A stretch of 45,743 nucleotides of DNA, from assembly GCA_029005175.1 (NCBI GenBank), contig JAQXFQ010000153.1, positions 1-45,743 of the forward strand, read 5' to 3'. Positions 4,844 through 6,970 of the stretch are shown one piece after another (the first letter of the stretch is position 1; the number at the start of each line of letters is the position of its first letter). Under the pieces are notes generated by a model. It saw only the letters and a list, made by a program, of their open reading frames with translations. It ran no database searches and was not told the DNA's origin. The position numbers and the translations under genes were made by a program. Source of the DNA: Bacillota bacterium. Its GTDB lineage: Bacteria > Bacillota > Clostridia > Oscillospirales > Acutalibacteraceae.

Positions 4844-5043
4844 AAAAAAAATTCCCGCCCGACCGTAATGTGCTTTAGATAACCTGCTACTAAAAGTAAC
4901 AGGTGGGTGCCATCCCAACGGCTTCACGCTCCCTGCTTCCGTACTCAGTTCAAGACTGCGGGAGGTCTGCAATCCACCGTCGGAGTGCTGGCTCCCGGGG
5001 ATAAGTTTGTAGGGTTATAAAAGCACAGTCCGCGAATCGGGCA
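4844..5043 (-). ncRNA. ssrS: Probable 6S RNA
   Basis: Minus-strand RNA ~200 nt: closing stem GCCCGA/TCGGGC and GTGCTTT..ATAACC/GGTTAT..AAAGCAC, a bubble with a side hairpin (CCTGTTAC/GTAGCAGG), then a long imperfect rod (GGGAGCC/GGCACCC, TCC-GACGG/CCGTT-GGGA, CTCCC/GGGAG), ending in an 8-T run. Adjacent to a DUF1292/YrzB-like gene. Confidence 0.72.
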
Positions 5044-5096
5044 GAAATATATTTGATTTTTGCTGACAATATTAATTATATGCAGATTTCAGGAAA

Positions 5097-5432
5097 TTAT
5101 AACTCCTCAGTTTCATAAAGCTCGTCAAATCTTTCCTGAAAAACGTCGGCCAAAGCTTCGAGCAGCTCTTCGTCCTCAATTTCGGCAAGTTCTTCTTCAC
5201 CGTCGACATCGACTACCTGAAGAATAATGTATTCACCCACGCCGGAATCCTCGTCAAAGGAGGCAAGCGGCAGCAAGGCGACGAATCTGCCTTCGTCTGT
5301 TTCGATAGCATCAAGAACCTCAAACTCGGACATGCGGCCTTCATCGTCAATCAAAGTGATAATGTCTTCGTTTTCTTCATTTACTACATCGTTTGAATTA
5401 ATGTTATCGCTCATTTGTAAGTTCATCTCCAA
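5097..5432 (-). CDS. DUF1292 (YrzB/UPF0473-like) acidic protein
   Basis: DIITLIDDEGRMSEFEVLDAIETDEGRFVALLPLASFDEDSGVGEYIILQVVDVDGEEELAEIEDEELLEALADVFQERFDEL is a characteristic DUF1292 pattern. Confidence 0.88.
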   Translation of the reverse strand: MEMNLQMSDNINSNDVVNEENEDIITLIDDEGRMSEFEVLDAIETDEGRFVALLPLASFDEDSGVGEYIILQVVDVDGEEELAEIEDEELLEALADVFQERFDELYETEEL

Positions 5433-5618
5433 TTATGCGGGGCAATAAAATATATCGTGAGATGAAATATTTTAGAATTGCCGATAATAATTGATAACTG
5501 ATAATTACGTTGGTCATCAACTGTTATGTATTGTACATGTTTTTTTTCAATTAGTCAATAGGAATTTTCATGTATTTTAAAATAAATAATTTTTTTCAAG
5601 AAAATTAGAAAAAACTAT

Positions 5619-5648
5619 TGACAAATGCACAAAGATGTGTTATATTAT
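5619..5648 (+). promoter_or_regulatory. Sigma-A-type promoter of the gene-free transcription unit
   Basis: TTGACA (5619-5624) and TATATT/TATTAT (5641-5648), spacing 16-18. Confidence 0.7.
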
Positions 5649-5654
5649 AGTTGA

Positions 5655-6843
5655 GCTTAGGAAAGCGAAGATAAAAAAGGAAAAAACGAACAGAAAAAGT
5701 AAATCGTAAAAAATTAAAGTAGATCAAAATCTTGATTGAAAAAAAGATTGAAAAAGTAAGTCGTTTGAAATCCGAAACATATGGGAAAAACCTTAGATGA
5801 GTCGGGTTGATTCCTTAAAAGTAAACGCTTGAATAAGCAAATATAAAAAAGAATGGAGTGTTGCCGATGCACGATTTAGAAGCCTCACAAAACATCGGAT
5901 TCGGCGCACATGAGATTGAAACAAAGTAAATCAATAGGGCATTATAAACGCCAAGAGTTTTCGCAGCAAACAATCCGAAATGCTAATGAGCATTGAAGCA
6001 GATTGGTTTATGCACGGTGAAAACCTGCGTAATGAATTGAAGTGAAAATGCCTGAGGTTGAAAAACGTCAATCCGTGGGCATCGGATATATTTGAGAAAG
6101 TTAAAAAACGATTGTGAATTATTGAATAATAATTTTACCGATTGAACTCCATTAATTGAAATGGACTTGAAGCCTCGCAAGACACATAAAAATTGCCGCG
6201 AAAAAGCGACCGCCGGTAAGCAGGACGCAAGTGAATGTGATATGTAAATGATAAGAAACAGATGACGAAAAACATTCTAGCAAAATCGAAAAAATGCAGG
6301 ATGCCCGTTGCAAGGCGGTGATAGCTGACCGCTGTAAATGCAAATAGTCATTAGTATTGTGTAAGGCAAACATTATGTGTATATTGATTAATTCGTTGTG
6401 TTTCGTAAGAAAAAGCGAACAACGCAAGTAAGACGAAAACAATGTTGAATATAGAATCAGAGTACCAAAAAGGTGCAAGTGTGATAAAGCGAGCTTAAAC
6501 CGATGTAAAATTGATTAAGAGGCGCAAAGCTTTAACGATACATTGCGATGTTCTTCAAAACAGCAATGAAATGTACGGCTAAAAGGTGCAGTCCAATGAA
6601 AAGTTAAATTATCACCGATAATCATGCAATAATAATTCAAAGGGCGTGAACTTGAGATGAAAAAGTTTATGAAAATCCTGAGAATTTAGATGGTAAAGGG
6701 TGAGTCCAAAGTACAGTTTAATTTAACAAAAAGCGGATGCTCGAAAGAAATCCGCACAAGAAATGAAAAAAGAATAGCCACAGCGGCATAAAGCTGATTG
6801 CAGCACCGATGTTCAAAAGAGAATGTCGGTGCTTTGCTTTTTT
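5655..6843 (+). ncRNA. Candidate large non-coding RNA (~1.19 kb), family not recognised
   Basis: Bounded by a promoter (5619-5648) and intrinsic terminator (6803-6844). No plus-strand ORF of 60 aa or more is listed. Strongly A/G-rich with stops in all frames and many short stem-loops. Confidence 0.55.
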
Positions 6844-6844
6844 A
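6803..6844 (+). terminator. Intrinsic terminator
   Basis: gcaccgatgttc-aaaaga-gaatgtcggtgc followed by tttgctttttta. Confidence 0.88.
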
Positions 6845-6970
6845 TTTAATTCAGTATAAATTTAATGCAAAAATATTGTCAAATTTATTTGATAAAGGTA
6901 TGGACGAATAGAGAAACTTAATGTATAATATTACTTAATATAATATTTGTGATTTTTAGGGGGAAATGCA

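Follow-up and report, generated by a model that had tools for sequence, protein, structure and literature searches.

A large structured RNA outside the described families, encoded on the chromosome beside 6S RNA in Clostridia and carrying repeated start-stop mini-ORFs

In the stretch of DNA analysed here (the window: 45,743 nucleotides from a Clostridia bacterium of the family Acutalibacteraceae), 1.54 kb separate the start of a DUF1292 gene (5432, minus strand) from that of a metallophosphoesterase gene (6971), and the question is what occupies this space. An earlier note, made from the sequence of the window, had described the gap as poor in ORFs and proposed that it holds a large structured non-coding RNA with its own promoter and terminator. 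The gap is indeed ORF-poor, the longest plus-strand ORF within 5610–6845 in the program-made ORF list being only 33 aa long. The claimed promoter (TTGACA-17-TATATT, first hexamer at 5618) has 11 of 12 consensus matches and a TG ahead of the -10 box, and it is nearly letter-for-letter identical in 16 same-genus genomes. The claimed terminator proved equally sound: a 13-pair stem (6802–6833) is followed by a T-run, all 12 complete copies besides that of the window end in it (13 of 13 with the window included), and 140 of the 141 stem cells in other genomes are paired. The transcript strand had been called strongly A/G-rich; its richness is in A (40.5% of 5653–6844) more than in G (21.9%, against 23.2% T and 14.3% C). 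The interval 5653–6844 is a free-standing RNA gene with its own promoter and terminator, as is typical, at the level of sequence, of large structured bacterial ncRNAs. Its features are listed in Table 1.

Table 1. Features of the RNA gene and of the neighbouring locus in the window
Feature	Position	Strand	Basis or remark
6S RNA (RF00013)	4848..5050	-	Rfam; adjoins in same-genus loci covering the site and in several other lineages
DUF1292 gene (PF06949), divergent	5097..5432	-	Pfam; neighbour retained in several lineages
Promoter TTGACA (5618/5619), 17-nt spacer with TG, TATATT/TATTAT	5610..5652	+	Sequence; near-invariant in 16 same-genus genomes
Structured RNA gene, ~1.19 kb	5653..6844	+	Covariation and same-genus homologs; start inferred from -10 box
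Leader copy of ribosome-binding element (GAATGGAGTGTTGCCGATG)	5851..5869	+	Degenerate in window; AGAAACGGGGTGACGCCGATG in most relatives
Leader sORF, 20 codons, MHDLEASQNIGFGAHEIETK*	5867..5929	+	Open with TAA stop in 14/14 genomes
5' strands of long-range helices 5882-5886:6519-6523 and 5892-5899:6499-6506, in leader sORF	5882..5899	+	14-genome alignment fold
Branched sub-domain closed by 5902-5908:6078-6084, covarying hairpins	5902..6084	+	Alignment fold and 5'-domain run
Second sub-domain closed by 6172-6178:6489-6494	6172..6494	+	Alignment fold
Helices within second sub-domain: 6183-6189:6373-6379, 6193-6200:6353-6369, 6270-6282:6295-6305	6172..6494	+	Alignment fold
3' strands of leader helices (6499-6506, 6519-6523), ~0.6 kb downstream	6499..6523	+	14-genome alignment fold
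Ribosome-binding element and mini-ORF AAGGTGCAGTCCA-ATG-AAA-AGT-TAA (MKS*)	6583..6607	+	Tolerant finder
3' AAG-type copy AAGG GTG AGT CCA AAG TAC AGT TTA ATT TAA	6696..6726	+	
Intrinsic terminator with compensatory changes	6800..6844	+	Sequence, homologs, covariation

Homologous regions, for which the earlier note had proposed a nucleotide search, were found by blastn in 15 of the 17 other genomes of the genus, those carrying the RNA being mostly rumen metagenome bins. Same-genus loci give an RNA of 1.24 to 1.53 kb, in which conserved islands alternate with fast-changing linkers. Some linkers are filled by species-specific tandem repeats (GGCAAGAAAAAGCC units in L034 and L041; GAAATC and AAAGATC units in L045 and L046), so that linker length seems to be unconstrained. 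The order 6S / DUF1292 / RNA is retained in same-genus loci wherever the contig allows, and a metallophosphoesterase and a dihydroorotase follow the RNA in most of them. A divergent DUF1292 gene lies upstream of the RNA in four genera of the window's family; L056, L069 and several loci from a second family share this arrangement, and 6S lies beyond DUF1292 in several of these cases. Neither 6S nor DUF1292 was present within about 6 kb in the other families sampled, where that much sequence existed. In L069 (3147–3492), a class A RNase P RNA gene lies closely behind the RNA gene and convergent with it, which brings all three RNA genes, 6S included, within about 2 kb.

The description of the RNA as large and structured was borne out by covariation. 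RNAalifold gave -346 for the alignment of 14 genomes, against -175 ± 8 for 25 column-shuffled and refolded alignments, and 91.5% of the cells pair in the consensus fold. Changes on both sides were found in 80 of 245 pairs, compared with 23 ± 5 in the shuffled refolds, counts that are not independent events because the aligned sequences are related, a relatedness that the shuffles leave in place. Other controls gave 17–29 such pairs when the partners were slid by 1–3 columns, and a mean of 37 (maximum 48) when the letters were re-dealt. A separate tool applied to the 5' domain found double changes in 18 of 47 pairs, and the single sequence of the window folds with z = -5.1 relative to 60 dinucleotide shuffles. 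The small stem-loops on which the proposal had leaned fared less well: except for the terminator, most pair poorly in relatives, with 10/57 paired cells for ATCCG/CGGAT, 4/23 for GCGGT/ACCGC, 23/74 for GCGGAT/ATCCGC and 30/58 for AATGCT/AGCATT. The conserved helices are mostly long-range, and the key ones, among others, are those in Table 1. In a second genus, belonging to another family, the RNA is present in 24 of 25 genomes; the alignment folds at -430 versus -292 ± 10, with 55 double-change pairs versus 13 ± 3. Secondary structure supported by covariation was thus found in the window's genus and, independently, in the second.

No established family accounts for this RNA. In agreement with the earlier claim that no family was recognisable, an Rfam scan of the window gave no match above the gathering threshold inside the RNA gene, and at E<=1 the gene was empty except for one chance Yfr17 match far below threshold. 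The Rfam models of OLE, GOLLD, ROOL, HEARO and group I and II introns did not reach their gathering thresholds in the window or its relatives, where matches were limited to 6S, tRNA, RNase P and T-box; 6S is a separate gene, and the RNA gene has no RF00013 match. No description of this RNA was found in the literature covered, which consisted mainly of open-access journal papers. Beyond the genus, blastn returned only promoter-like or marginal matches. The phage or prophage location of ROOL and GOLLD does not apply, since the locus is chromosomal and conserved and the exact internal motif is missing from viral contigs; 15 looser viral-contig matches are no true homologs, since what comes after them is either a short ORF of an unrelated kind or a longer reading frame. 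A Fontibacillus match from the exact scan was attributed to chance, as the genus profile does not match it. The minus-strand ORF of 108 aa at 6152–6478 is unconserved in relatives and has no Pfam match. A decayed gene, a lack of covariation and an Rfam match had been named in advance as outcomes that would speak against a new structured RNA; each was examined and none was found. Located on the chromosome, the interval 5653–6844 encodes a large structured RNA that fits none of the described families.

Relatives outside the genus were reached by looking for exact matches to the best-conserved internal segment of the RNA, which is the core of its 3' AAG-type copy of a repeated element, AAAGG-N(1-4)-GAGUCC-N-A(U/A)G. 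Loci L055, L056 and L069 have little sequence in common and share several copies of this element; L056 and L069 share the 6S / DUF1292 / RNA order, and the RNA of L055 is placed elsewhere. The element occurs in 79 of 300 genomes of the order, far above a reversed control pattern, often as 2–4 copies within ~1 kb; its frequency in other orders of the class is near that of the control. A tolerant finder located 58 copies in 16 confirmed transcripts; shuffled sequences gave 1.3, and the antisense strand had none. When 251 genomes of the family were searched with a covariance model of the 5' domain, only the genus was matched, so that kinship outside it is supported by the element, the architecture and the locus rather than by aligned core sequence, which appears to be genus-specific at the sensitivity of that model. 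In L101 (2030–2320, minus-strand reading), a block of ~75 nt with two mini-ORFs (AATAGGTGTTACCAATGAAATAAG and AAAGGTGAGTCCAATG) is duplicated within one RNA. In the genome of L081 (G299), at L081 and at other sites, AAAGGTAGGAGTCCAAAG occurs five times in an apparently dispersed and unrelated repeat, which was treated as noise in the motif count. A shorter RNA of ~400 nt, found in four other families of the order (L095 1487–1970; L099 1495–2010; L114, minus, 1495–1900; L128, minus, 1500–1865), has the same element right after its promoter, then a mini-ORF (MYR*, MYK* or MKK*) and, near the terminator, a second conserved sORF (MLDIKSEQK*, MLDIKNSHK*, MLDIKTENK* or MLDNKNHLR*). At two paralogous sites of L106 and in L116, genes resembling those of secreted or surface proteins are directly preceded by the element and a short leader ORF (MVPAVCSL*; MFS*), a placement suggesting that the element may also serve as a cis-acting leader.

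The element has the form of an extended Shine-Dalgarno sequence: its conserved AGAAAGG, GUGA and UCC portions can pair with the 16S 3' tail (GGAUCACCUCCUUUCU) if one G is bulged out. Such pairing leaves the conservation of the G in UGA-G-UCC unaccounted for. The tail sequence was present in 5 of 12 genomes of the order that were searched and had no match in the draft genome from which the window comes, so that it was transferred from relatives. For element copies, the duplex with the tail has a median energy of -13.9 kcal/mol, and for a reference set of 35 ordinary window ORFs the median is -7.8 kcal/mol, a comparison that is partly built in, AGG being part of the search pattern. In confirmed transcripts, an in-frame stop comes within four codons in 24 of 27 later copies; the counts for the other two frames are 2 and 4, and other AUGs in these transcripts give 45 of 172 (Fisher p = 5e-10), 27 being an upper bound on independence since copies within a transcript may be duplicates. 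TAA, TAG and TGA are all used. Enrichment was weaker among all strict matches across the order (21 versus 10 and 14 within four codons), a set of 59 after de-duplication that includes chance matches, so that the clean enrichment comes from the confirmed transcripts. The copies thus look like minigenes, with a start codon behind a Shine-Dalgarno sequence and an in-frame stop a few codons on. AAG-type copies lack the AUG at the usual place and keep the stop, and they always have an in-frame RUG 9 nt upstream, too near AAAGG for standard initiation.

The 5'-most copy differs in that, in most lineages, it starts an ORF of 16–24 codons. In the genus, the pN/pS of this leader ORF is about 0.84, no better than that of other frames, and no selection at the peptide level was detected in 14 genomes: the leader peptide is weakly constrained, and the conservation of its ORF is attributable to pairing with 6499–6523. 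The second genus shows the same anatomy. Its leader ORF starts at position 172 and is traversed by helices 198-218:717-736 and 188-195:737-744, the latter having compensatory changes at 5 of its 8 pairs, and its peptide is recognisable within that genus (MVTEETSYxFAGLAA[AT]L); leader peptides of different families have no recognisable relation. Only the leader copy of the element was found there by a strict search, and the array is thus not universal. Since the leader ORF lies on a long-range helix in two families, a ribosome translating it would have to open that helix, and this shared anatomy is the strongest clue to mechanism. The earlier label "non-coding" stands insofar as neither strand has a protein gene; the conserved leader ORF and the start-stop mini-ORFs make it too simple. 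We know of no described RNA class with repeated high-affinity ribosome sites, each with a near-immediate stop, the first of which lies on a structural helix.

That the RNA engages ribosomes is what we infer from these features, and it is probably either a translation-gated switch or a ribosome decoy. The most likely function, put forward tentatively, is a translation-gated switch that also titrates initiating ribosomes. In such a scheme, 30S subunits would load at the element copies, make a useless short peptide and depart, translation of the leader would pull the long-range helix apart, and the fold, hence the output of the RNA, would depend on the number of free initiating ribosomes. 6S RNA titrates RNA polymerase, and the new RNA could be the translational counterpart of this neighbour. 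A wider proposal, possible but doubtful, is that of a global regulator of a new kind in one order of Clostridia, a large folded RNA that would sense and titrate free ribosomes through repeated extended Shine-Dalgarno/start-stop units, with leader translation gating a helix, as the translational partner of 6S.

The main rival to the switch is protection from decay by bound ribosomes: Shine-Dalgarno/mini-ORF roadblocks, once occupied, would shield the RNA from 5'-to-3' or endonucleolytic decay, and its function would lie in the fold. Copies are spread along the transcript and their frames give no useful product, and strong Shine-Dalgarno sites beside mini-ORFs have been reported to protect transcripts, once by ribosome binding alone (PMC8708949). 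Protection by binding alone needs no in-frame stops, however, yet stops are strongly enriched, and the second genus has one recognisable copy, making this explanation rather unlikely. Still less likely is a pure decoy with no switch, sequestering 30S subunits or depleting tRNAs through peptidyl-tRNA drop-off; the extended pairing with the 16S tail, the frames of one to three codons and the toxicity that very short minigenes with a strong site, such as two-codon ones, can exert via tRNA depletion (PMC8708949) fit this idea, but it leaves the conserved fold and the leader ORF on a long-range helix unexplained, and the codon identity of the mini-ORFs varies widely.

The element could instead be a protein- or RNA-binding motif whose start-stop frames are incidental, given that UGAGUCC is conserved beyond the needs of a Shine-Dalgarno spacer and that some copies have no AUG (GGAGTGAGTCCACCTAA in L103); the confinement of stop enrichment to one frame, with three stop codons at variable distance, makes this improbable. 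An mRNA for a small protein, in which the 16–24 aa leader peptide is the product and the remainder untranslated, would account for a leader ORF open with its stop in all 14 genus genomes and for a peptide recognisable within the second genus, but is very improbable in view of the pN/pS, equalled in other frames, the lack of peptide relatedness between families and of any Pfam match, and the helix pairing that accounts for the conservation. The position between two genes in a gene-dense window might suggest the remains of a protein gene, or else a long 5' leader belonging to the metallophosphoesterase gene that follows. This is scarcely credible: covariation is strong, the terminator closes the RNA and another promoter-like site (6901) precedes the next gene, the minus-strand ORF has neither Pfam match nor counterpart in relatives, and in L035 and L041, of the same genus, nothing downstream matches a metallophosphoesterase.

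To our knowledge, bacteria have rarely yielded new classes of structured RNA of kilobase size, and the functions of the known ones are largely open. The RNA described here shows strong covariation in two families, has 6S as its constant neighbour in several lineages, and is best read as a new class of large structured RNA that appears to engage ribosomes through start-stop mini-ORFs. Start-stop sites together with a leader on a helix suggest a specific and testable link between ribosome supply and RNA folding, and the element provides a simple sequence signature for locating the RNA in gut and rumen genomes. The adjoining 6S RNA (RF00013) is likewise a stand-alone RNA gene and a possible functional parallel, but it is a separate gene of ~200 nt on the opposite strand. 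The raiA motif RNA (ModT), another large structured RNA that is conserved in Bacillota, Clostridia among them (PMC11706538), is set apart by the Rfam scan of the window, in which 6S was the only family matched. Very short start-stop ORFs behind a Shine-Dalgarno sequence are known from the two-codon minigenes of the axe-txe and EHEC LEE1 leaders, which act in cis on their transcript (PMC8708949); those lie in leaders of protein genes, whereas the new RNA is structured, ends at its own terminator and has several copies in its interior. The closest kind is that of the large ornate RNAs OLE, GOLLD and ROOL (PMC12286853), which are likewise stand-alone bacterial RNAs of great size and elaborate structure, with functions known in part or not at all, and none of which matches by Rfam model. 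Ribosome binding has been reported for GOLLD, and OLE is thought to be able to sequester the ribosomal protein RpsU (PMC12286853). The new RNA is longer (~1.2–1.5 kb in the genus) and, unlike ROOL and GOLLD, which occur in phages near tRNA islands, is chromosomal beside 6S; its leader and mini-ORFs set it apart from all three.
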